A stretch of DNA of 64,000 nt from Candidatus Cloacimonadota bacterium (GCA_021108395.1 JAIOQZ010000032.1:124001-188000), one strand, 5' to 3'. Counted from the first letter of the stretch, positions 7,107 to 35,037 are shown. The notes: generated by a model not told the origin, from the sequence alone. Numbers and translations: made by a program.

Positions 7107-8027
7107 CTAATTCTCACCAAAATAATCAGAATCTATGGTTTTTATATTGTATGTGCTTACAGTAGATAAGCCTACACTATAGTCAATCATCAAGTTGGTT
7201 AGACGCTCACCATCAATCAAGATAATTTTATACTCGACTTTTCCTATAAAATCATATACACTTTTTGGGAAACTAGAAGTTGTAATGAATATCCCCTTTT
7301 TTGCTTTTTTGGATGCAAGTGCTCCCGTGAAGTCGCGGATCTCTTTTACAGGAACAGTGTTTTCCCATCGTTTTGCTTGAAGATATATTACATCAAGACC
7401 CAGTTTGTCTTCATTAATAATCCCATCGATTCCTCCGTCCCCTGATTTTCCCATTGCTTGACCTGCCTCTTTTCTTGAACCTCCATAGCCCATTGCAATA
7501 AGTAAATCAATCACAAGTTGTTCAAAGAAATCGGGGGAACATGATTTGATAATACCGAGAAGTTCTTGAGATAGATCTGAATGAAGTTTTTGGTATGCAT
7601 ATTCAAGAGCTTCTTCGGGCGTTTGGTCTGTGTTAGTGTTAAGATGTTCAGTCTTTGGAGATGCGTTTGCATTCTTCTCATTATTAGGCGTTTGAAACTG
7701 AACAAAATCATCATAACGCGATGAAAGAAATTTGGAATTTATCTCAATTGGATTTTCAGACAACAATTGATGTCCTTCTTCGCTAATCTGGAAGTGAGCT
7801 CGTTTGATCGAAGTAATCAGACCTGCTTTTTTCATATAAGTTATAGCCCATCCAACACGATTTCGAAAAATGGACTGTTTGCCGCTTGGTAGAAGTTCTC
7901 TGATTTCACCATCACTTAAATGAAAGTGTCTCGCAAGAGAATCACGAGTTTCACTAAGGCTATGTACTTTGCTGTCCTCTAGAAGTTTTAAGAGCGGTAG
8001 CATTATTTCTTCATATTTTGGGATCAT
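7107..8027 (-). CDS. mrr: Mrr-type (type IV) modification-dependent restriction endonuclease
   Basis: 306 residues matching the full architecture of E. coli Mrr. The N-terminal winged-helix region (about 1-90) has the family phrase SGKQSIFRNRVGWA. The C-terminal PD-(D/E)xK nuclease domain (about 165-290) carries the variant catalytic set GDGGIDG (Asp201) ... LQAKRW (Gln217, Lys219). Mrr enzymes cleave methylated DNA and need no partner methylase; none is present here. Start ATG with GAGG 6 nt upstream. The gene is AT-rich (about 38% GC in a sampled 60-nt row, against about 58-60% in neighbouring native genes), stands alone and opposes its neighbours' direction, all signs of horizontal acquisition. 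It has its own promoter at 8063-8091. Confidence 0.92.
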   Translation of the reverse strand: MIPKYEEIMLPLLKLLEDSKVHSLSETRDSLARHFHLSDGEIRELLPSGKQSIFRNRVGWAITYMKKAGLITSIKRAHFQISEEGHQLLSENPIEINSKFLSSRYDDFVQFQTPNNEKNANASPKTEHLNTNTDQTPEEALEYAYQKLHSDLSQELLGIIKSCSPDFFEQLVIDLLIAMGYGGSRKEAGQAMGKSGDGGIDGIINEDKLGLDVIYLQAKRWENTVPVKEIRDFTGALASKKAKKGIFITTSSFPKSVYDFIGKVEYKIILIDGERLTNLMIDYSVGLSTVSTYNIKTIDSDYFGEN

Positions 8028-18795: not shown

Positions 18796-21700
18796 ATGCG
18801 ACCAGTCTACAAAAAAAAACCGACATTCATCGTCGCAAAATCAGGTGAGTTGCAGCGACAGTTGAGCAGGAGGCTTCTTTTGAGGGAAACGGGTATAATC
18901 CACCAACGGCACACGAGCGTTTGGCTCTACACACTGGTTCTGGCAGCGATGTCGTTGTTCTGGGCTTCTCCTGTTTCATGTGATCTTTTGACCGAAGCGG
19001 AGCGCGACTGGGTGGATGGCCACGGCGAAATCATCTTTGTCAGTCAGACCACCTACCCGCCGTTCGAGTTCATCGACAGCCACGGTAATCACGAGGGCAT
19101 GTGCATCGAGCTGGCCCGTTGGATTTCAACCGAGCTTGGCTTCAAGGCCAGTTTTTGCGATATGACGTTCCAGGAGGCGCAGGAAGCCGTGTTGTCGGGC
19201 GAGGTGGATGTGCTCACCAGCCTGTTCTACAGCGAAGAACGGGACGGGCGGTTCGACTTCTCCGAAATGACCTGGGAGGTACCCGCGCTCATCTTTGTGC
19301 TGGCCGAGCGGCCCGACATTACCTGCCTCGATGACTTGCAGGGCAAACGCGTGGCCATGCAGCGCGGAGACTATGCCGCCGAGTTTCTCGATTCCAACGG
19401 CATCTGCTACGAACTGGTTCCCACCGCCACATTCGCCGAGGCCACCGACCTGGTGATTTCCGGCGAGGCCGACGCCGTGATTGGCGATGAACAGATAGTT
19501 CTCCACCACCTGTTCAGCAACGGCCTTTGCGACCGCGTGAAGTCCGTGGGTGAGCCTCTATACGTTGGCCAGAACTGCATGGGCGTACGCGAAGGGCAAA
19601 CGGAGCTGAGAAACATCCTCAACAAGGGAATCGAGTATGCTTGCCAGCGGGGCGTGTTTGACCGCATAACGCAGAAATGGCTCGGTAAACATTACGCTTT
19701 GCACAGCTCCTGGATGCACCGGCACGGGCCGGACATTCTCATCGCGCTTGTAGTTCTCGCGGTTTTTGCAACGCTCGTTGTGGCTTGGAGTCTGCGACTG
19801 CAACAGCTCGTTGCCCGGCGCACACGCGAACTGGTCGAAACTCACGATCCGCTGATATCCATAGTGCGTCATTCAACCGGAAGAATCGGCCTGAAAAGAT
19901 GGATACTGGTTGCCGTCATCATGCTTCCGCTGCTGCTTGTATGTGGTTATGTACTGAAGCAATACGTCATTATGCCCAGCTTCTATGCTCTCGAACAGGA
20001 ACAAGCCAAAACAAGCATTGCCGGCTGTGTGGACGCTCTCCAGCGCGAGGCGTATCATCTTGGCCAGGTCGGTGGTGACTGGGCCATGTGGGACGATACA
20101 TACCAGTTTGTGCAGGACGGTAACTCGGTGTATGAAACGTCCAACTTCCAGTGGGAGAGCATGCACAACAGCGGCATACACCTCCTTTATGTCTGCGACC
20201 TCGAAGGCAATGTCATCTGGGGAGGTGTCCGTTGTCCGAGCTATGACGCTGATATATCGCTTGTCGAGTTCCCGCAGGACGCTTTGCCAGTGAGTCATCC
20301 CCTGTTGCGCCATGAGTCACTCGACAGCAGCATCAATGGTTTTGTCCTGACCGAGCATGGCCCGATGCTGGTCAGCTCTCATCCCATTCTCACGAGCCTG
20401 GGCGAAGGCCCGAGTCGGGGGACTATCATCATGGGGCGGTTTCTCGACGAAGTGATAATCCAGGAGTTGTCGCACCAATATGGCATTTTCTTCAGTGTCC
20501 GCAATCAGCGCACCTCTGAACTGAAAGACAGCGAAAGGGCGATATTCGCACGGCTGAACAACGAAACGCATGTTATCGAAGCGTTCGATACCGACACCTT
20601 GATGGCCTACGGCATGCTCACCGACCTGGAAGGCAACACTGCACTGCTCGTCTCTGCCAGTTTTGGTCGCAGAATCGTGCAGCGCGGCCTGGCCATGTCC
20701 AGCCTGGTTATGCTCATTCTGCTAATCACCGGTGGAATCCTCAGCGTTTTCCTGGTTAGCTGGCTTACGTCTTTTCTCGCCGAGAGCGTCCGGCGGCAAG
20801 TGCACATTGAGGCACTGGTGGAAGAACGCACCTCCGCGTTACGCGAGAGCGAAGAGCGCTATAGGGATTTCTTCAACAATGCTCTGGTAGGTCTTTTCCG
20901 TTCACGGTTGTCCGATGGCGTATTCATTGAGGTCAACCACATAACTGCGAAATACTTGAAGCTTCCGGTCGAAGAAATCGTCGGGAAGCTGAGTTCCGCT
21001 GACTTATATCGAAATCCCGGGCAGCGGGATGAGCTTCTTTCGATACTCGAACGTGATGGAGAAGTACACGGCTTCGAGACAGATATGAGATTTCATGATG
21101 GCGCGGAGGGTATCTTCTCCTCATCGGTGAAAGCCTATCCGGAAATGGATTACATGGAAGGTGCCGTACTCGACATCACCGTACGCAAGCGGGCGGAGGA
21201 GGATGTCAAAATATTCCGAACGATGTCGGATATGGCTATGCACGGCAGCGCAATTGTTGATCTTGATGGAAATATGAAATACGTTAACGCTTTTTTCGCC
21301 AAGATACACGGATTCATTCCCGATGAACTGATTGGCCGCAACCTGAGCGTGTTTCACAGCGAGAAGCAGATGAAGCGTACTGCCCAGCTAAACGACAGCC
21401 TCATCAAGAAGGGACACTACAGTGCAACTGAGGTATGGCACATACACAAAGACGGCACGGAATTCCCAATGCTTATGACCGGTACCCTGATGCGTGATGA
21501 GAGTGGCAGTCCCCAATATATTACCGCAATTGCAGTTGACATCACCGAACGCAAGCGGGTGGAAGAGGCGCTGCGGAAAATCCACAATGACTTACAGGCA
21601 ACGTTGAACGCCATTCCGGATATCATGTTCGAGGTTGATCCGGAAGGCCGTATTTATAATTTCAACGCCCCTTCAGAAAAATCGCTTCATGTCCCGCCGG

Positions 21701-24700
21701 AAGAGTTCATGGGGAAAACCGTTAATGAGGTGATGCCGGAAGAGGCTGCGAAAATCATTATGGACGCCATTGCACAGGCACGGGAAAAAGGGAGTTGCCA
21801 TGGAGCGGTTTACAGCTTGGATACGTCAGAAGGCGAGAAGTGGTTTGAGCTTTCAATTTCCTGTAGAGAGTGTAATGGTAGCGGCTACGAGCGGTTGATT
21901 GCGCTGGTGCGCGACATCACCGACCGTAAGCGAGTCGAGGAGGCCCTGCGTGAGAGCGAAGAGCGCTACCGGGCATTCTTCGATAATTCTCTTGTCGGCC
22001 TTTTCCGTTCACGGCTGTCGGACGGCATGTTCATTGATGTCAACCATAAGGCGGCAGAGGATCAGGGGTTGAGGGTTGAAGACATCATCGGCAAGGTGCG
22101 TACCCCCGACCTCTACCGCGATTCCGAGAGACGGGATGAGCTTTTCGCGTTGCTTGCACGAGATGGAGAGGTAAATAATTTTGAGATAGACATGACGCAT
22201 CCCGCCGGCAATGACGTCACCTTCTCCATCTCCGTGAAAGCCTATCCAGAGAAGGACTTCCTGGAGGGCGCCGTTCTCGACATCACTGCGCGCAAGCAGG
22301 CGGAGGAAGCCTTGCGCGAGAGCGAGGAGCGCTATCACTCGTTTATCAACACCAGCACCGACCTGATGTTCGTGAAGGACGAGAAATCCCGTTACATCGT
22401 TGCCAATAAGGCTACACTCGAGTTTTTCGGCACGAGTCGTGACGAGCTGCTTGGTGGAACCGGTTTCGAGCTGATGGACGAAGTCGGCGCACGGTATTGC
22501 GCAGCTTCGGACAAGCAGGTACTGGAAATGCTACAGGTTGCCGTTGTGGAAGAACCTCTCAACGATCGAGTTTATGAGATGACCAAGTTTCCTCTCAAGT
22601 TGTCCGAAGGGGTCATTGGCATTGGTGGGATTGGTCGCGACATCACCGCACGCAAGCGGGCGGAGGAAGCACTGCGGGAGAGCGAAGAACGGATGGAACT
22701 GGCCTTGCGGGGCGCGGACCTTGGTACCTGGGACTTAAATATTGAAACTGGCGATGTGACCCACAACGAGCGGTGGGCTGAAATGCTGGGTTATATCCTG
22801 GACGAGATTGAGCCTGACTCGACCACATGGGGAAAACTAACCCATCCCGACGACCTACCGGGCATTGAAGCAGCGTTGAACGCGCATCTGGCGGGCAAAA
22901 CGGTTTTTTACGAGACAGAGCATCGTCTGCGGCACAAGTCAGGTGAGTGGGTCTGGGTGTTGGACAGGGGCCAGGTGATCGAACGCGCCCTCGACGGTAA
23001 ACCACTTCGTGCTTGCGGTACGCATCTCGACATCACCGAACGCAAACAGGCTGAGGAAGAGCGCGAACGGCTGAAGCTGGCCATCGAGCAGGCCAGCGAG
23101 ATGATCGTCATCACGGATGTTAGAAGTGTCATTCAGTATGTCAATCCTGCATTCGAGCATGTCACGGGCTACTCCTCAGACGAGGCTATCGGCCAGGACA
23201 CATGCATTCTCGAGAGTGGAGAGCACGATCCTTCCCAATACACGGAAATGTGGAAGACGCTTGAGACCGGCGAGTCCTGGAGCGGCCAATTTATCAACAA
23301 GAAGAAGGATGGAACGCTCTATACCGTCGAGGCGGTAATCTCGCCGGTGCGTGACGCTTTGGGACGGACTGTCAGCTATGTGGCGGTCGAGCGTGACATC
23401 ACCGAGCGCAAGCTGGCCGAAGAGGAACGCGAGCGTCTGATGCTGGCCATCGAGCAGGCTTCCGAGGTGATTGAGATTTTGGACGTTGAAGGCGTCATAC
23501 AGTATGTGAATCCGGCGTTCGAGCGCATTTCAGGCTACACCCGAGACGCGGTGATTGGCAAGAACATACGCGATCTCAGAAGTGGAGAGCATGATGACGC
23601 CTTTAACCAGGAATTGTGGGAGAAGCTTGTGTGTGGAGAGACTTGGAGCGGTCGGTTTGTCAGCAAGAAGAAGGACGGAAAACTTTACACCGAAGAGGCG
23701 GTCATCTCGCCGGTGCGAGACGCTTCGGGAAAAATAGTTAACTATGTGACGGTGAAGCGTGACATCACCGAGGAGCTGAAGCTGACGGCGCAACTACAGC
23801 AGGCGCAGAAGATGGAATCCGTAGGGCGTCTGGCCGGCGGCGTGGCCCACGACTTCAACAACATGCTGCTGGTTATTCTCGGCCATACCGAGCTGCTGCT
23901 CGATCAAATGGGGCCGAACGACCCCCTGCGCTCCAACATCGAGGAGATTCGCAATGCCGGCAATCGCTCGGCAGACCTCACACGCCAGTTGCTGGCATTC
24001 GCCCGCAAGCAAACGGTATCGCCCGTAGTTCTCGATCTGAACAAGACCGTTGATAGCATGCTCAAAATGCTGCGACGGCTCATCGGCGAGGACATCGATC
24101 TCATTTGGAAGCCGGGTGAGGGGATCGCTCCCGTCCGCATCGACCCCGCTCAGGTTGACCAGATGCTTGCCAATCTGGCCGTCAATTCCCGTGATGCAAT
24201 CGAGGATGTCGGTACCCTGACTATCGAAACCGCCAACTTTGAAATCGATGATGAGTTCTGTGAGCGCCACGCCGGTTTCAAGGCGGGGTATTATGCCATG
24301 CTGGCTGTTACGGATACAGGATGCGGTATGAGCAAAGAAGTCCAGTCGCATATCTTCGAGCCGTTCTTTACCACGAAAACTGTGGGTGAGGGCACCGGCC
24401 TCGGACTGGCTACGCTATACGGAGTCGTCAAGCAGAACAAAGGCTTTGTGAGCGTGTACAGCGAATTGGGCAAAGGCACGGCCTTCAAGATATTCTTGCC
24501 GGCCTGCGGCGACCGCGAAAAGGACGCCGTTCAGGAGGTTACGTTTGAAGCGATTGACGGCGGCGGCGAAACCGTGCTGCTTGTCGAAGACGAACCAGCC
24601 ATCCTCAAAATGGGCGCAACCATGCTGGAGCATCTCGGATACTCGGTGCTCAAGGCGCATACGCCCGGTGAGGCTTTGCAGATTGCCCGTGAACACCCCG

Positions 24701-24933
24701 GCAATATTGACGTGCTGCTAACCGATGTGGTGATGCCCGAGATGAATGGCCGCGAGCTGGCCAAGCGATTGCTGGCGCTCTATCCGACGATAAAGCGGCT
24801 GTTTATGTCTGGTTACACGGCCAACGTAATCGCTCATCAGGGTGTGCTGGACGAAGGCGTTCACTTTCTTCAGAAGCCGTTTTCCTTCAAGACGCTGGCC
24901 GAGAAGTTGAAGGAAGCGCTTCACAACGAATAG
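18796..24933 (+). CDS. Giant hybrid histidine kinase: SBP_bac_3 - CHASE4 - 8 PAS - HisKA - HATPase - receiver
   Basis: 2045 residues. A leader peptide (h-region near 43-60) is followed by a periplasmic solute-binding-3 domain (about 63-297, starting EIIFVSQTTYPPFEFID), a span (about 313-332), a second span (370-389), a CHASE4-like sensor (about 402-615) and a third span (630-660). Eight PAS domains start near residues 682, 806, 926, 1052, 1173, 1293, 1421 and 1542. HisKA has the phosphoacceptor His1685 in VAHDFNN, HATPase has DTGCGMS and GEGTGLGLA, and the C-terminal receiver has Asp1977 in LLTDVVMPEMNG. PAS1/PAS4 and PAS7/PAS8 are near duplicates. A TTG at 18880 (AGGAGG with 6-nt spacing) is a strong alternative start that gives a more normal signal peptide. 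It lacks an adjacent regulator. Confidence 0.92.
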   Translation: MRPVYKKKPTFIVAKSGELQRQLSRRLLLRETGIIHQRHTSVWLYTLVLAAMSLFWASPVSCDLLTEAERDWVDGHGEIIFVSQTTYPPFEFIDSHGNHEGMCIELARWISTELGFKASFCDMTFQEAQEAVLSGEVDVLTSLFYSEERDGRFDFSEMTWEVPALIFVLAERPDITCLDDLQGKRVAMQRGDYAAEFLDSNGICYELVPTATFAEATDLVISGEADAVIGDEQIVLHHLFSNGLCDRVKSVGEPLYVGQNCMGVREGQTELRNILNKGIEYACQRGVFDRITQKWLGKHYALHSSWMHRHGPDILIALVVLAVFATLVVAWSLRLQQLVARRTRELVETHDPLISIVRHSTGRIGLKRWILVAVIMLPLLLVCGYVLKQYVIMPSFYALEQEQAKTSIAGCVDALQREAYHLGQVGGDWAMWDDTYQFVQDGNSVYETSNFQWESMHNSGIHLLYVCDLEGNVIWGGVRCPSYDADISLVEFPQDALPVSHPLLRHESLDSSINGFVLTEHGPMLVSSHPILTSLGEGPSRGTIIMGRFLDEVIIQELSHQYGIFFSVRNQRTSELKDSERAIFARLNNETHVIEAFDTDTLMAYGMLTDLEGNTALLVSASFGRRIVQRGLAMSSLVMLILLITGGILSVFLVSWLTSFLAESVRRQVHIEALVEERTSALRESEERYRDFFNNALVGLFRSRLSDGVFIEVNHITAKYLKLPVEEIVGKLSSADLYRNPGQRDELLSILERDGEVHGFETDMRFHDGAEGIFSSSVKAYPEMDYMEGAVLDITVRKRAEEDVKIFRTMSDMAMHGSAIVDLDGNMKYVNAFFAKIHGFIPDELIGRNLSVFHSEKQMKRTAQLNDSLIKKGHYSATEVWHIHKDGTEFPMLMTGTLMRDESGSPQYITAIAVDITERKRVEEALRKIHNDLQATLNAIPDIMFEVDPEGRIYNFNAPSEKSLHVPPEEFMGKTVNEVMPEEAAKIIMDAIAQAREKGSCHGAVYSLDTSEGEKWFELSISCRECNGSGYERLIALVRDITDRKRVEEALRESEERYRAFFDNSLVGLFRSRLSDGMFIDVNHKAAEDQGLRVEDIIGKVRTPDLYRDSERRDELFALLARDGEVNNFEIDMTHPAGNDVTFSISVKAYPEKDFLEGAVLDITARKQAEEALRESEERYHSFINTSTDLMFVKDEKSRYIVANKATLEFFGTSRDELLGGTGFELMDEVGARYCAASDKQVLEMLQVAVVEEPLNDRVYEMTKFPLKLSEGVIGIGGIGRDITARKRAEEALRESEERMELALRGADLGTWDLNIETGDVTHNERWAEMLGYILDEIEPDSTTWGKLTHPDDLPGIEAALNAHLAGKTVFYETEHRLRHKSGEWVWVLDRGQVIERALDGKPLRACGTHLDITERKQAEEERERLKLAIEQASEMIVITDVRSVIQYVNPAFEHVTGYSSDEAIGQDTCILESGEHDPSQYTEMWKTLETGESWSGQFINKKKDGTLYTVEAVISPVRDALGRTVSYVAVERDITERKLAEEERERLMLAIEQASEVIEILDVEGVIQYVNPAFERISGYTRDAVIGKNIRDLRSGEHDDAFNQELWEKLVCGETWSGRFVSKKKDGKLYTEEAVISPVRDASGKIVNYVTVKRDITEELKLTAQLQQAQKMESVGRLAGGVAHDFNNMLLVILGHTELLLDQMGPNDPLRSNIEEIRNAGNRSADLTRQLLAFARKQTVSPVVLDLNKTVDSMLKMLRRLIGEDIDLIWKPGEGIAPVRIDPAQVDQMLANLAVNSRDAIEDVGTLTIETANFEIDDEFCERHAGFKAGYYAMLAVTDTGCGMSKEVQSHIFEPFFTTKTVGEGTGLGLATLYGVVKQNKGFVSVYSELGKGTAFKIFLPACGDREKDAVQEVTFEAIDGGGETVLLVEDEPAILKMGATMLEHLGYSVLKAHTPGEALQIAREHPGNIDVLLTDVVMPEMNGRELAKRLLALYPTIKRLFMSGYTANVIAHQGVLDEGVHFLQKPFSFKTLAEKLKEALHNE

Positions 24934-28419: not shown

Positions 28420-29283
28420 ATGAAAATCGCTATCGCCAGCGGCAAGGGCGGCACCGGCAAGACAACTCTGTCGGTCAACCTTGCGCTTTATATGCAGCAG
28501 TCGCAGGATGTTGTCCTGTGCGATCTCGACGTGGAAGAACCCGATGCGCATGTGTTCATCGGTGGCGAGCGCATCGCCCACCAGATGGTGCACAAGGTTG
28601 TGCCGGAGGTGAACGAGTCGGCCTGCACAGCATGCGGATTGTGCCGCGAGGTGTGCGCTTTCCACGCTATCACTCTCATTGCGGGCAGGGTGCTTGTGTT
28701 CCCTGAGCTTTGCCACAGTTGCCATGCCTGCATCGAGCTGTGCCCGCAGCAGGCATTATTGCCTCGCAAGGTAGAGCTGGGCGAGATTACCGAATACCGG
28801 CGCGACCGCCTGCGGTTCGTCGAAGCGCGGCTGCTGGTGGGGCAGGAGCAGGCCGTACCGCTCATCCGCGAAGCTCAACGCTACATCGACCAGAACGCTC
28901 CCGCGTCCATTGTGATTTACGACGCCCCGCCCGGCACATCGTGCCCCGTGGTGCAAACGCTCTACGACGCCGATTATGCCATTCTGGTCACCGAGCCAAC
29001 CCCCTTCGGCCTGCACGACCTCGGTTTGGCCGCAGAGACGGTGAGACTGCTGGGCAAGCCGCTGGGAGTGGTCATCAACAAGGACGATGGCGACGACAAC
29101 GACATCGTTCGCTGGTGCGAGAGCGAAGGCGTGCCGTTGTTGGCGCGCATCCCCCACAAACGCTCGCTGGCCGGGCTTTGCGCGGGCGGGCACACGCTGT
29201 TTGACGCCGACCCCGATGTCGCCAGAGCCATTGCAGACGTCAGCACAGCTATACTGTCAATGCAGGAGGGCGGCGATGCGTGA
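28420..29283 (+). CDS. MinD/Mrp-family ATPase with inserted 2[4Fe-4S] ferredoxin domain (copy 1)
   Basis: 287 residues. Deviant Walker A GKGGTGKTT (8-16). A ferredoxin module is inserted at about 62-112 with two CxxCxxCxxxC motifs (Cys69,72,75,79 and Cys98,101,104,108), then Walker B-like IVIYDAPPGTSCPV. P-loop ATPases with this insert are related to NifH/Mrp/NBP35 and are thought to handle Fe-S clusters or electrons; the physiological role is not established. It overlaps the second copy by 8 nt. The two copies have the same Cys spacing and positions, which suggests an ancient duplication and a heterodimer. Confidence 0.9.
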   Translation: MKIAIASGKGGTGKTTLSVNLALYMQQSQDVVLCDLDVEEPDAHVFIGGERIAHQMVHKVVPEVNESACTACGLCREVCAFHAITLIAGRVLVFPELCHSCHACIELCPQQALLPRKVELGEITEYRRDRLRFVEARLLVGQEQAVPLIREAQRYIDQNAPASIVIYDAPPGTSCPVVQTLYDADYAILVTEPTPFGLHDLGLAAETVRLLGKPLGVVINKDDGDDNDIVRWCESEGVPLLARIPHKRSLAGLCAGGHTLFDADPDVARAIADVSTAILSMQEGGDA

Positions 29284-30160
29284 GATAGTCGTCATTTCGG
29301 GCAAGGGCGGTACCGGCAAGACCACCCTCACTGCCACCCTGGCATATATGCTGGGAGCAAGCGTCACCGTTGCCGACTGCGACGTCGATGCCGCCGACAT
29401 GCACCTGCTGCTGCAACCGCAATCAACGCGCGAGGAGCGCTTCTACAGCGGCGATGAACCGGAGATTGACGCCTCGCTGTGCACAGGCTGCGGCTGCTGC
29501 GAAGAGGTTTGCCGCTTCGATGCGATTCATGTGGTGAACGGCGTGGCCGTGCTCAATCCGTTTCTGTGCGAGGGCTGCGGCTACTGCGCACGGGTATGCC
29601 CGGTCGAGGCAATCGCCATGCGCCCCTGCTATGTGGGATTGCTTTTTGAGTCGCAACTGAGCACAGAGGCGACAATGATTCATGCCCGCCTCACGCCAGG
29701 CGGCGAGAACTCCGGCAAGTTGGTTGCTCGGGTGAAGAAAGACGCACGCGCCGCCGCCGAACGTGACGGATGCGATATCGTGCTCGTTGACGGCTCGCCC
29801 GGCATCGGTTGCCCGGTCATCTCGTCGCTCAGCGGGGCTGACTATGTGGCGCTTGTCACCGAGCCGACGCAATCGGCGCTGCACGATCTTGGCCGCGTTG
29901 TCGAGCTGCTCGAACGGTTTCATCTGCGCGCCGGCTGCGTACTCAACAAGAGCGACATCCATCCGGCTGTTGCCATGCGGGTACGGGAGTTCCTTGCCGA
30001 CAAGGACATCCCGCTGCTGGCCGAGATACCATACGACGAGCGCGTACTGGAGGCCATACGCCTCGGCAAGACGCCTGTCGAACACGCGCCGCAGGCTTTT
30101 CAACCGCTATTCAAGAACATTCTCGATACCTTATTGAATGAAAGCAAGGAGGACAAATGA
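29276..30160 (+). CDS. MinD/Mrp-family ATPase with inserted 2[4Fe-4S] ferredoxin domain (copy 2)
   Basis: 294 residues, same fold as the preceding protein: Walker A GKGGTGKTT (9-17), ferredoxin motifs Cys69,72,75,79 (with an extra Cys74) and Cys98,101,104,108, and IVLVDGSPGIGCPV as switch/Walker B. The real ATG at 29276 overlaps the end of copy 1 (GATGCGTGA) and has GGAGG upstream; the longer frame from 29087 is a shadow of copy 1. The stop overlaps the NifX-like start by 4 nt. The pair plus NifX protein form a compact Fe-S handling cassette. Confidence 0.9.
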   Translation: MREIVVISGKGGTGKTTLTATLAYMLGASVTVADCDVDAADMHLLLQPQSTREERFYSGDEPEIDASLCTGCGCCEEVCRFDAIHVVNGVAVLNPFLCEGCGYCARVCPVEAIAMRPCYVGLLFESQLSTEATMIHARLTPGGENSGKLVARVKKDARAAAERDGCDIVLVDGSPGIGCPVISSLSGADYVALVTEPTQSALHDLGRVVELLERFHLRAGCVLNKSDIHPAVAMRVREFLADKDIPLLAEIPYDERVLEAIRLGKTPVEHAPQAFQPLFKNILDTLLNESKEDK

Positions 30161-30495
30161 TTATCGCCATTTCCGCCGCCGGAAACACACCAGACGCAGT
30201 GCTCGACCCCAGGTTTGGCCGTGCCGAGCATTTCATGCTGTATGACACGGAAACCCATGAATACAGCCATCTCGACAACGGAGCCGTGCGTACTACCGCT
30301 CACGGCGCAGGGCCGCAAACTTCACAGAAGATAACCGACGTCGGCGCCGAGGTGGTCATCACCGGCAACGGCCCCGGCGGTAACGCCGCACGAACGCTAC
30401 AGGCCGCCGGCATCCGCGTGTTGCTGTGCAAGAAAGACGCTACCGTGAAGCAGGCAGTTGGGCTGTACATGCAGGACAAGCTGACCGAAGCCTGA
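30157..30495 (+). CDS. NifX/NifB-C-terminal-like (dinitrogenase FeMo-cofactor family) protein
   Basis: 112 residues covering one Nitro_FeMo-Co domain. Family features: DPRFGRAEHFMLYD, HGAGPQTSQKITDVGAEVVITGNGPGGNA, and VLLCKKDATVKQAVGLYM. In diazotrophs such domains bind Fe-S/FeMo-co precursors; stand-alone copies in non-diazotrophs, next to MinD-Fd ATPases, have an unknown cargo. ATGA overlap with the ATPase gene and GGAGG upstream. No nif structural genes are in the window. A strong terminator follows. Confidence 0.92.
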   Translation: MIIAISAAGNTPDAVLDPRFGRAEHFMLYDTETHEYSHLDNGAVRTTAHGAGPQTSQKITDVGAEVVITGNGPGGNAARTLQAAGIRVLLCKKDATVKQAVGLYMQDKLTEA

Positions 30496-30663: not shown

Positions 30664-33600
30664 ATGAAAACGGGAATCCTCTGCGTTCTTATCATGCTAA
30701 CTTCAACTATGTCTGCCGATGTGCTGTTTTATGATAACTTCGACAGAGCCGATGGCGAAGTCGGCAACGACTGGCAGTTCAATACCCCGCCCCATCTCAC
30801 GAACAGCGCCATCGTTGACAGCGTATTCAATATCTCGCTCATCGCCACCGGCAACGCCTCTCACGCTTTCGATTCCCTCAGTTCGGGCAAGGTGTACGTC
30901 GAGTATGACTGGAAGCTCGATACAAATGACTGGACAGCCTGCATATATCCCGTCGAAGACATGATCTACCTGCGCTGTGACTGGCAGGGAAACATCGCCT
31001 ATGACGAAACGAGCAATTTCACCACGCCCACGCCGGTAACGCAGATCAACTTCGGCCAGTGGTACGAGCTGAAGATATGCTACGACCTCGACAACGACAC
31101 CTTCTCGTTCTGGCTGGACGGTACACAATTTGTCACCGATGCACCCGGAAACACTGTCAGCTTCATCAATGCGTTCTACTTTCTCAACCTGAACGCTACC
31201 AACTTCGTTCAGCAGATCGACGACTTCATCGTCTATGACGACACTCCCCCCGACACTCCCGCGAATCTCACGGCCACAGAGAACATCGACAGCATCGTTC
31301 TGGACTGGGACGCGGTTCCAGAGCCGATGTTCGTCACCTACAAGGTGTACCGTGACATTACGCCCAATCCCACGACAGAAATAGCCGAGGTGGGGCCGGA
31401 CAGCACAACCTACGTGGACATGGTGCGGGCGACTCAGAACACCGATTACTACTATCGCGTTAAGGCTGTTGGCCTCGACGGGCAGACAAGCGCTTACTCG
31501 AACGAGGTGCAGCTTGTTCATTTGCTGCCCGACATCAGCGTTACCGGCACTCCGGTAAATATCGATGTTGGTTATGGCTATACCGATTCTACTTGTTTTA
31601 CCATTCACAACAATGGGAATTATGATCTGGAGTATTCAATTACAGGAGTGGATACAACAGGAGTGGATACAACAGGCTTGGTTGCATATTATCCGTTTGA
31701 TGGTAATGCTAATGATGAGAGCGGACACGGAAATAATGGAACTGCTTACGGCGCAACTTTAACGTCAGATCGATTCAATAATGATAATAGTGCATATTTC
31801 TTTGACGGGGTGAATGATTATTTGCTTGTTGGACAAAGCAATGATTTCATTTTTGATACAGCTGATTTCACTATTGATTCCTGGTTCAAGGCTACAAATA
31901 TAGTAAATACTGACCCAGTGATATTTGCCGGAGCTACTGACTTGTGTTTCATGTTACAATTGAGCTATAATAGTGACGATCCAAAATTAGCGTTATCCAT
32001 TTCTAATGGAATATCACCATGGGGAGTTGACGGTTTTTATTGTGAGATGGGATCAACAACTATCTTGGAAGATACTTGGAATCATGTGGTATTAGTGCGT
32101 AGCGCCAATACTTTTAAGGTGTATCTAAATAGTGTCGAAGATATTACCAGATATCAAGTAATAGATATTCCTGATCCCTATGGTTTTAGAATAGGAATAC
32201 ATGCGAATACGAATAATCCTTTCTTAGGCTCAATTGACGATATTCATGTCTATAATCGAGCGCTGTCTGAAACCGAAATACACTATTTGTATGGTGTAAG
32301 CCATCATACAGTCTCCCCTTCCTCTGGAACAATCCCCGCCAACACGAGTGCGGACATCCAGGTAACCATAGACGCAAGTGACCTGGAACCCGGAGTATAT
32401 AACGACACTCTGTTCGTATATTCCAATGACCCCGATGAACCGCTCGTAAATGTGAGCGTGAGCTCGACCGTGCACCCGCCCGATATAGATATTACCGGTA
32501 TTCCGGTAAATATTGATGTTGGCTATGGATATATCGATTCAACAACATTCAATATTGGAAATGTGGGTGATGGTCTATTGGAATATTCAATCACTGGAAT
32601 GGATACAACAGGCCTGGTTGCCTACTATCCGTTTGATGGTAATGCTAATGATGAGAGCGGGAATGAACACATAGGATCGGTAAATGGTGCCGTATTGACG
32701 ACTGACAGGTTTGAAAATGTCAACAAGGCTTACGAATTCTTTGGAACGGATGAATATATCTCTGTACAAGATAACAATGATTTTGATCTCTTTTCCTCAA
32801 TAGATTCAAAAGCTACGATATCTACTTGGGTAAAACTGAATGTGGTTTCCGGAGAACATACGATATTGACTCATAAGACAACAGGAATCGATACGAGATG
32901 GGTATTGGGACATTATAGTGCTCCGGGTAACGGTATTTTCTTTGCGATTATCAATGCCGGGACCATTTCTTATCAACTCCATAACTTGGAAGAACTTAAT
33001 GACACTGACTGGCATCATCTGGCACTTGTGAAAGACGGCAGTCAATATAAAATATTCATAGATGGAGAGATTTCTTTCACAGGCACTTCAACAGCAACAG
33101 TAAATGCTAATGGCAATTTATGGATGGGTGTCAAGTGCGACACTTGGCCTGGTGATTTGAATGGTAAACTTGATGAAGTTAAGCTTTACAATCGTGCTCT
33201 TTCAGGAATTGAAGTTAGAGCTTTGTATAATCAACGTGATTTTCTATCTAATATGTCAGTATACCCAACCAGCGGTATTCTCTCAAGTAACGAAAATGAG
33301 GACATTCAAATCACAATCGATGCAACTTCTATGAATCTTGGTACATATACTGATACTCTAAAGGTTTTCTCAAATGATCCTGACGAAGATAGTTTGAGTG
33401 TAATTGTTAACACTACCGTCCATCCGCCGGCAATAAGCACAGACATCGCCGAGCTTGAGGTGAGGCTGAACGCCGGCGGTAACACCCATCTCGATACTTT
33501 CGATATCATCAACAGCGGGATTGGAAAACTTGAGTACGAGATATGCGGGAATGATACTTTGAAAGATTTTGGAAACAGTTTGGAATTTGATGGAAATGGA

Positions 33601-35037
33601 GATTATGTTCAAATTTCTGATGATGCACTTTGGGATTTTGGCCCAGGAGATTTTACAATTGAATTGTGGGCAAATCCTTCGAATATTTATAATAATGATA
33701 CTTATATTGAAATCGGTCAAGTACCAAATTCTATTTTACTTCGTCAGGAGAATTCGACGACACTTTATATTCAGATTTTTGGGAGTCCGTTCTCATTTCC
33801 TTTTATTCCTTCAATCGGTGAATGGTTTCACCTTACTGTTACTCGTGCTTCTAATCAGTTGAAGGTACTCATAGGAGGAGAACAAATAGGCAATGCAAGT
33901 TGTAATCATAATATTCAAATATCTAATGTAGTAAGAATTGGTTCTTCTGTTCATGCAACCGGGCAATATTTTAATGGCAACATTGATGAAGTTCGTATTT
34001 GGAATATTACTCGCTCTCAAACAGAAGTTCAAACAAATATGCATTTGGAATTAATTGGTGAAGAAATCGGGCTTGTCGGCTACTGGAAATTTAACGAGGG
34101 AACCGGAGGGACAGCTTATGATTCGACTCCTAACGGAAATAACGGTATTCTTACCAATATGAATTTAACAACATGTTGGAGCTTATCAAATCCAAATATC
34201 TCTACTTCTGCTTCAATCCTATTTTTTAATCCATTCGTGGGAACCATCGACGCCGGACGGCTGTCACAGCAGATAGAAATGACCACCGCCGGCGCCGGCC
34301 TCACAGATGGCGTCTATGAAACGGCGGCGGTAATCACGTCCAACGCGCCTGCGCCCGACGACAGCATCGAGATTGCCGTGACCGTGAAGGTTGATTACAC
34401 ACCGCCGCTACAGGTGCAGAGCGTGGCGTTCACCTCGAGCACCGAAGAGGAGATTGTGCTGGACTGGGATGCAAATGCCGTCAGTGACAGCGTTTATCAT
34501 TACAATGTTTACCGCCGCAGACATGACGAACCGGTCTATGTGCTGGCGGGAACTTCGCTGGCGCCTCAATACACCGATACCACTTTCGTGGCCGAGGATA
34601 CACTCTATATCTACTACAAAATAGCCGCGGTTGACTGGGTGGAAAATGAGGGAGCGCAGTCGGACAGCGCTCGCACCTGGCTGGGTGAATTCGCTGTGCC
34701 CCAGAACATCACCTTCGAGTTCATCAACGATTATCAGGATGGCCTGGTTCAGTGGGGCGAAGTTGTAAGGCCTGGAACACCCACATGTTACGTTGTCTAT
34801 CACAGCTACTTCGCCGACTCGGAATTCATCTTTCTCGACATCAGTGATTCAACGGCATATGTTCACGAGAACGTCGGGCTGTTCCAGGAGCACGACAGGA
34901 TGTTCTATCGAGTCACCGCCTTCGGCGGCAGCTTACGAGCGCTCAGATATTTCAGAGAAAACGACATCACGTTCAGCTATGGCGAGTTAGAGAGAATGGT
35001 CGCGGAATTCACTGAGAAGCAGGTGCGCCGACCCTGA
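30664..35037 (+). CDS. Secreted multidomain protein with FN3 domains and three nested LamG domains
   Basis: 1457 residues. Signal peptide (1-18, ...TSTMSA). Domain order: a LamG-like lectin fold (about 20-197), FN3 (about 200-285), then three Ig-like ASH-type units, each apparently interrupted by a LamG/concanavalin domain (inserts about 339-543, 650-859 and 967-1180), then two FN3 domains (about 1245-1440). Scaffold halves repeat: PVNIDVGYGY...LEYSITG before each insert and SGTIPANTSADIQVTID...SNDPDEP after it. LamG phrases: GLVAYYPFDGNANDESG and VYNRALSETEI. Inserts are AT-rich (28-40% GC in sampled 60-nt rows) while scaffold and flanks are about 58-60%. There is no sorting motif at the C-terminus. 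Probable adhesin or glycan-binding surface protein. Confidence 0.85.
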   Translation: MKTGILCVLIMLTSTMSADVLFYDNFDRADGEVGNDWQFNTPPHLTNSAIVDSVFNISLIATGNASHAFDSLSSGKVYVEYDWKLDTNDWTACIYPVEDMIYLRCDWQGNIAYDETSNFTTPTPVTQINFGQWYELKICYDLDNDTFSFWLDGTQFVTDAPGNTVSFINAFYFLNLNATNFVQQIDDFIVYDDTPPDTPANLTATENIDSIVLDWDAVPEPMFVTYKVYRDITPNPTTEIAEVGPDSTTYVDMVRATQNTDYYYRVKAVGLDGQTSAYSNEVQLVHLLPDISVTGTPVNIDVGYGYTDSTCFTIHNNGNYDLEYSITGVDTTGVDTTGLVAYYPFDGNANDESGHGNNGTAYGATLTSDRFNNDNSAYFFDGVNDYLLVGQSNDFIFDTADFTIDSWFKATNIVNTDPVIFAGATDLCFMLQLSYNSDDPKLALSISNGISPWGVDGFYCEMGSTTILEDTWNHVVLVRSANTFKVYLNSVEDITRYQVIDIPDPYGFRIGIHANTNNPFLGSIDDIHVYNRALSETEIHYLYGVSHHTVSPSSGTIPANTSADIQVTIDASDLEPGVYNDTLFVYSNDPDEPLVNVSVSSTVHPPDIDITGIPVNIDVGYGYIDSTTFNIGNVGDGLLEYSITGMDTTGLVAYYPFDGNANDESGNEHIGSVNGAVLTTDRFENVNKAYEFFGTDEYISVQDNNDFDLFSSIDSKATISTWVKLNVVSGEHTILTHKTTGIDTRWVLGHYSAPGNGIFFAIINAGTISYQLHNLEELNDTDWHHLALVKDGSQYKIFIDGEISFTGTSTATVNANGNLWMGVKCDTWPGDLNGKLDEVKLYNRALSGIEVRALYNQRDFLSNMSVYPTSGILSSNENEDIQITIDATSMNLGTYTDTLKVFSNDPDEDSLSVIVNTTVHPPAISTDIAELEVRLNAGGNTHLDTFDIINSGIGKLEYEICGNDTLKDFGNSLEFDGNGDYVQISDDALWDFGPGDFTIELWANPSNIYNNDTYIEIGQVPNSILLRQENSTTLYIQIFGSPFSFPFIPSIGEWFHLTVTRASNQLKVLIGGEQIGNASCNHNIQISNVVRIGSSVHATGQYFNGNIDEVRIWNITRSQTEVQTNMHLELIGEEIGLVGYWKFNEGTGGTAYDSTPNGNNGILTNMNLTTCWSLSNPNISTSASILFFNPFVGTIDAGRLSQQIEMTTAGAGLTDGVYETAAVITSNAPAPDDSIEIAVTVKVDYTPPLQVQSVAFTSSTEEEIVLDWDANAVSDSVYHYNVYRRRHDEPVYVLAGTSLAPQYTDTTFVAEDTLYIYYKIAAVDWVENEGAQSDSARTWLGEFAVPQNITFEFINDYQDGLVQWGEVVRPGTPTCYVVYHSYFADSEFIFLDISDSTAYVHENVGLFQEHDRMFYRVTAFGGSLRALRYFRENDITFSYGELERMVAEFTEKQVRRP

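Follow-up and report, generated by a model that had tools for sequence, protein, structure and literature searches.

Lectin-like domains in a foreign codon dialect, nested within split immunoglobulin-like repeats of a putative surface protein from a Candidatus Cloacimonadota bacterium

In the RTX adhesins AhLap of Aeromonas hydrophila, FrhA of Vibrio cholerae and MpIBP, split immunoglobulin (Ig)-like domains project ligand-binding domains off the adhesin axis (PMC12077191, PMC10865825). Here we describe a gene with a related layout in a 64,000-nucleotide stretch of DNA from a Candidatus Cloacimonadota bacterium (hereafter the window; JAIOQZ010000032.1:124001-188000, contig C1 of the 2.9-Mb, 62-contig draft genome GCA_021108395.1, here G000). 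The gene carries three successive ASH-type Ig-like repeats, each interrupted by a laminin G-like (LamG) domain. The likeness to RTX adhesins lies in a putative ligand-binding guest that buds from a split Ig-like domain and in the presence of several guest types per protein. The holder differs, being of the ASH/BACON/HYDIN type and split after its fourth strand, whereas that of FrhA is BIg-like with a single first strand; in addition, unlike in the RTX adhesins, orthologous sockets here differ in the fold they hold and show a foreign codon dialect. Pfam and NCBIfam scans of the protein gave no match to RTX families, and a Sec-type signal peptide was read instead. We judge it probable, with appreciable room for doubt, that the gene encodes an adhesin with exchanged binding cassettes and that its current guests came recently from AT-rich donors. 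Its features, in window coordinates, are as follows.

30664-35037 (+): whole gene, a single open frame of 1457 amino acids for a multidomain protein that has split Ig domains and is predicted to be secreted
30664-30717 (+): putative N-terminal Sec-type signal peptide, MKTGILCVLIMLTSTMSA, read by eye; orthologs keep the M-K start
30718-31251 (+): N-terminal domain of ~178 amino acids, kept in orthologs and without Pfam match, with a GC content at third codon positions (GC3) of 0.72; by eye it looks like a ConA-type beta-sandwich
31252-31521 (+): fibronectin type III domain (PF00041, 24.6 bits, slightly below the cut-off of 25)
31528-31647 (+): ASH1 N-half, final residues LEYSITG
31648-31677 (+): tandem 15-bp duplication (VDTTG VDTTG), exactly at the junction of the ASH1 N-half and LamG1
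31672-32301 (+): LamG1, guest of ASH1 (PF13385; AlphaFold2 (AF2) fold)
32302-32475 (+): ASH1 C-half, starting SGTIP (PF22544)
32479-32598 (+): ASH2 N-half, final residues LEYSITG
32608-33252 (+): LamG2, guest of ASH2 (PF13385)
33253-33426 (+): ASH2 C-half, starting SGIL
33427-33549 (+): ASH3 N-half, final residues LEYEICG (our own hidden Markov model, 53 bits; no Pfam match)
33550-34197 (+): LamG3, guest of ASH3, of a permuted subtype (PF13385; AF2 fold; tree)
34198-34392 (+): ASH3 C-half, starting VGTID (our own hidden Markov model, 82.5 bits)
34393-35034 (+): two fibronectin-like domains, then a conserved C-terminal tail, YGELE

An earlier note on this DNA had described the three ASH repeats as interrupted by LamG at the same place, and the end and start motifs of the halves bear this out. 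Joining the halves of repeat 1 gave 32.9 bits to the HYDIN/CFA65/VesB-like Ig profile PF22544 (curated cut-off 25.5), in a match that continued over the junction; alone, the C-half reached 20.0 bits to PF22544 and the N-half had no Pfam match. The joined repeat also passed the curated cut-off of BACON_2 (PF19190), with 28.1 bits. The joined halves of repeat 2 scored 25.9 bits to PF22544, just above its cut-off, and the joined orthologous repeat of genome G074 scored 26.7 bits to the Pfam Ig profile. The halves, of 40 and 60 amino acids, cover complementary parts of one profile, and split-Ig matches in several proteins stop at position 40-44 of 100 and restart at 35-43. G120, which belongs to the same class of organisms, has intact ASH repeats, and in these a hairpin just a few residues long lies between LNWSI and W..V.P.SGT; compared with PF22544 and PF19190 domains, a guest of ~215 amino acids here replaces this short C-D hairpin. 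The structure prediction that the note had called for also favoured a single split domain for repeat 1, with a mean pLDDT of 81.3, a pTM of 0.71, and four strands ahead of LamG and five behind. From profiles and models, repeats 1 and 2 each read as one Ig domain in two halves, and repeat 3 likely does so too.

The guests are near-full matches to Laminin_G_3 (PF13385), a lectin-like jelly-roll family whose members usually stand in tandem or at protein ends and are nested here. The open reading frame (ORF) contains three, with a total E value of 3.6e-66; each spans nearly all 151 profile positions, at 81-82 bits against a curated cut-off of 27.6. LamG3 is motif-permuted, unlike LamG1 and LamG2, with YWKFNEG at its C-terminal end. 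Foldseek placed the guest near domain 4 of the arabinanase AbnA and the lectin-like domains of trans-sialidases, and all matches were LamG or jelly-roll folds, including sugar-binding domains of sialidases and clostridial neurotoxins, a fold-level likeness with no bearing on toxicity. Because they resemble carbohydrate-binding jelly rolls, all three guests are probably glycan-binding. Elsewhere in G000, contig C26 (locus L061) carries two short adjoining LamG proteins of 253 and 275 amino acids and intermediate composition (LamG GC3 0.45), which share 55% and 46% identity with the first part of LamG1.

Relatives were sought among 107 genomes of the order, and the gene was found in 5-6 of them: the scaffold is present in G012, G024, G042 and G074, and its C-terminal part only in G025. 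Orthologs place different folds in the same slot, which supports the view of this loop as a socket. It holds a LamG in G012 and G025, a C-type lectin in G024 (PF00059, E 9.6e-20), a LamG followed by a C-type lectin in G074 (PF00059, E 1.2e-16) and, in G042, a module without known family in the first ASH domain followed by a LamG. The G042 ortholog is divided between contigs C355 and C330, and its first guest is a glycine-rich segment of at least 180 amino acids without Pfam match. Guest folds differ between G024 and G042 even though their scaffolds are 70% identical at both ends; scaffold identity between the window and G012 is 64%. The number of ASH domains is two in G074 and in G042, versus three in the window. 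The arrangement recurs, at this profile position, in further proteins of the order. On contig C35 of G000 (locus L116, minus strand), a 1924-amino acid ORF has a split ASH domain at residues 944-1203 that holds a choice-of-anchor-J domain, and a split ASH domain in G027 holds GEVED. In a 6893-amino acid protein of G002 (contig C316, L153), ASH domains hold a LamG and, elsewhere, inserts of 211 and 271 residues that resemble beta-propeller pieces. Lectin_C, GEVED and choice-of-anchor-J domains have unrelated folds; none is present in the window gene, and they fill the socket in orthologs or in additional proteins of the order. Non-nested tandem LamG arrays are common in the order, and nesting is the minority arrangement.

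The codon dialect changes within the window gene. Overall GC in the window is 56%, and GC3 is 0.73 in the N-terminal region and 0.66 in the C-terminal region of the gene, compared with 0.29, 0.33 and 0.23 in the three inserts. Two-state segmentation on third codon positions delimited three AT-rich tracts.

31555-32331 (+): AT-rich tract 1, GC3 0.29
32482-33408 (+): AT-rich tract 2, GC3 0.31, almost the entire ASH2 unit with LamG2
33550-34233 (+): AT-rich tract 3, GC3 0.23, beginning exactly at the junction of ASH3 and LamG3

In residues, native-like stretches (1-297, 557-606, 916-962 and 1191-1457) alternate with AT-rich ones (298-556, 607-915 and 963-1190), and all six composition borders (297/298, 556/557, 606/607, 915/916, 962/963 and 1190/1191) fall no more than 10 codons from the edge of a domain or half-domain (P ~3e-5 against random points). 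The contrast is synonymous (Mantel-Haenszel odds ratio within amino acids 0.16, Z -14.0), and this stratified test rules out amino-acid composition as the source of the low GC. Among 230 ORFs sampled from its genome, the gene has the most uneven GC3, the background being ~20 sampled stretches plus the window. Insert codon usage is uncorrelated with that of native genes (r -0.02; 110,149 codons) and resembles that of several AT-rich members of the order (r 0.90-0.93) and of AT-rich genes of the same genome (r 0.91); the terminal scaffold reverses this pattern (r 0.90 with native genes). In composition the inserts are thus foreign to the host and similar to possible donors, as expected of horizontally acquired DNA. 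The earlier note's contrast between AT-rich inserts and a scaffold of 58-60% GC was right about the low-GC tracts and wrong about a uniform scaffold, which has 52-57% GC at the ends and 37-56% in the internal halves; a division into insert and scaffold is also too simple, because the AT-rich tracts include most of the ASH1 N-half and almost all of ASH2. Its proposed comparison with homologues revealed a similar contrast in G074, G024 and G042, where the middle is AT-rich relative to the ends though the guests differ. Little or none was seen in G012, which is AT-rich throughout (GC3 0.27), or in G025, where the whole gene is AT-rich with a weak shift only, as expected since the genomes of both are AT-rich. 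LamG domains are not AT-rich by nature, because others in this genome have a GC3 of 0.73-0.82, except for the two on contig C26. Nor does nesting itself drive AT-richness, as the choice-of-anchor-J guest on contig C35 has the native composition of its gene (GC3 0.72 versus 0.74). Separately, a gene for an Mrr-type restriction endonuclease at 7107-8027 (-) has the lowest GC3 of the sampled genes (0.28) and looks recently imported.

Phylogenies of guests and scaffold disagree. The G012 LamG clusters with those of G050 and G043 (support 99/99); approximately unbiased (AU) tests rejected both the sisterhood of window LamG1 and the G012 LamG (p 0.019) and the monophyly of the three slot-1 LamGs (p 0.001). 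Guest history is thus discordant with that of the rest of the gene, as horizontal acquisition predicts, in a tree of weak resolution. Within the gene, repeats 1 and 2 share 72% DNA identity over the first 140 nt of their LamGs and 80% over their ASH N-halves, and monophyly of LamG1 and LamG2 was not rejected (p 0.46), so slots 1 and 2 may, judging by sequence, derive from one unit. Repeat 2 has a single copy of the junction motif (MDTTG), versus two copies of VDTTG in repeat 1. Since ASH2 is almost wholly AT-rich, as is most of the ASH1 N-half, the data suggest that two older ASH domains gained a whole ASH unit, with its LamG, between them. The loop is already filled in relatives with two ASH domains, which argues for replacement and unit duplication, and not for repeated first-time insertion. 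The earlier note had proposed repeated insertion of a foreign domain into one loop; that the modules are foreign is supported by the differing folds in orthologs and the foreign codon dialect, but three independent insertions are not supported: repeats 1 and 2 look like copies of one unit, and ASH2 arrived AT-rich as a near-whole. The higher same-codon identity of the window gene to G012 within the AT-rich tract (0.62 versus 0.27) was weighed as evidence for a common donor and dropped, because non-sister LamGs give 0.59 and shared AT-richness alone accounts for the value.

These observations fit a model in which the product is exported by the Sec route and acts as an adhesin or binding protein. 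The domains at its ends, beta-sandwich-like at the N terminus and fibronectin-like elsewhere, would be inherited vertically, and the row of ASH/BACON-type Ig domains in the middle would serve as sockets. A guest would bud from the loop that joins strand C (LEYSI) to strand D (vsPsSGt) and, by analogy to RTX adhesins, keep both of its ends on the rod with its ligand face pointing away or sideways. As guests would enter and leave at two neighbouring strands, differing folds could substitute for one another in frame. Recombination would replace guests or whole ASH units with their guests, and the current ones would be recent arrivals from AT-rich bacteria, probably members of this order; their import would account for the foreign codon dialect within a gene that is otherwise native.

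Several points weigh against this model or parts of it. The closest LamG relatives are only 34-41% identical to the guests and no donor was found; a search of viral contigs, plasmids and phages yielded only distant LamGs (29-33%). The LamG tree has long branches and few supported forks, so the AU tests carry model risk. An AT-rich middle in four orthologs, the window gene included, fits repeated import but might also come from some lasting regional pressure. For the holder, the AF2 models were read as confidence scores and strand order, so the packing of the halves against each other is presumptive. The joined halves of repeat 3 match no Pfam Ig model, neither PF22544 nor PF19190, and in the AF2 model of this repeat, from a shallow alignment, LamG was the only part that folded; our own profile scores both ASH3 halves highly, though it was built from the same repeats and orthologs and is hence not independent.

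Lasting pressure of this kind would mean that the nested layout is old and stable and that selection or mutation maintains the low GC3 of the middle, for example through slow codons that let the guest fold before the Ig domain closes. This explanation, which we regard as unlikely, accommodates the AT-rich middle of the window, G074, G024 and G042 despite their differing guests, and the ASH halves there that are AT-rich along with the guests. It fits poorly with the GC-rich ASH3 halves and part of ASH1 next to AT-rich guests in the window, with the composition of the contig C35 guest and of other LamGs in the same genome (up to 0.82), with insert codon usage that resembles whole AT-rich genomes beyond what selected slow codons would produce, and with guests that do not follow the scaffold phylogeny. 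Transfer of the whole gene as a unit, its ends having ameliorated or been refreshed by homologous recombination so that the guests are the unameliorated rest, would explain why the close ortholog in G012 is AT-rich all through, why so few genomes of the order carry the gene and why gene neighbours differ between the window, G024 and G074. We hold it to be quite improbable: mutational amelioration should be even along the gene, whereas the ends are fully native, the composition borders coincide with domain borders, and the guest phylogeny differs from that of the ends. Homologous recombination could have replaced just the ends, at the cost of two extra events.

Two further explanations concern the reality of the arrangement. 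Sharp shifts in composition are a usual sign of chimeric assembly or binning, here of AT-rich and GC-rich genomes, and the genome is a draft; yet the frame stays open over six borders and 1457 codons on a 285-kb contig, and orthologs elsewhere share the architecture and a similar contrast, making a chimera extremely improbable. It is likewise hard to believe that LamG and Ig merely alternate in an ordinary tandem mosaic with the halves as small separate domains. Many of the order's proteins do carry tandem arrays of LamG, PKD and lectin domains, and G120 has a LamG placed after intact ASH repeats, but the halves in the window gene match complementary parts of a profile and reach a full-domain score only when joined.

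The exchange of binding cassettes in an adhesin, which we favour over these alternatives, may be part of a wider pattern. Tentatively, the C-D loop of ASH/BACON-type Ig domains could be a standing socket throughout the order, into which unrelated lectin-like folds (LamG, C-type lectin, GEVED, choice-of-anchor-J and possibly propeller pieces) enter in frame, by exchange between species and always at one position. If so, binding specificity would travel by cassette while the holder gene remains native. The parts and split-Ig display as such are already known; what is new is the type of holder, the lineage, the exchange of guests between orthologs and the two codon dialects in one gene. In the open-access literature we found no earlier account of lectin domains nested within domains of the ASH/BACON type. 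Split-Ig display, known from gammaproteobacterial RTX adhesins, probably occurs here in an unrelated holder domain and lineage, and orthologs with differing guests and codon-marked newcomers make the exchange of binding-specificity cassettes directly testable from genomes. The arrangement also provides a search rule, an ASH N-half followed by a long gap and an ASH C-half, for locating binding tips in giant, uncharacterised surface proteins.

Directly 5' of the gene, AGGAG forms a plausible ribosome-binding site. The region immediately upstream, 28420-30495 (+), encodes two MinD/Mrp-type ATPases with ferredoxin inserts and then a NifX/NifB-like (Nitro_FeMo-Co) protein. Farther upstream in the window, 18796-24933 (+) encodes a sensor kinase of 2045 amino acids with a solute-binding domain, CHASE4 and many PAS domains.

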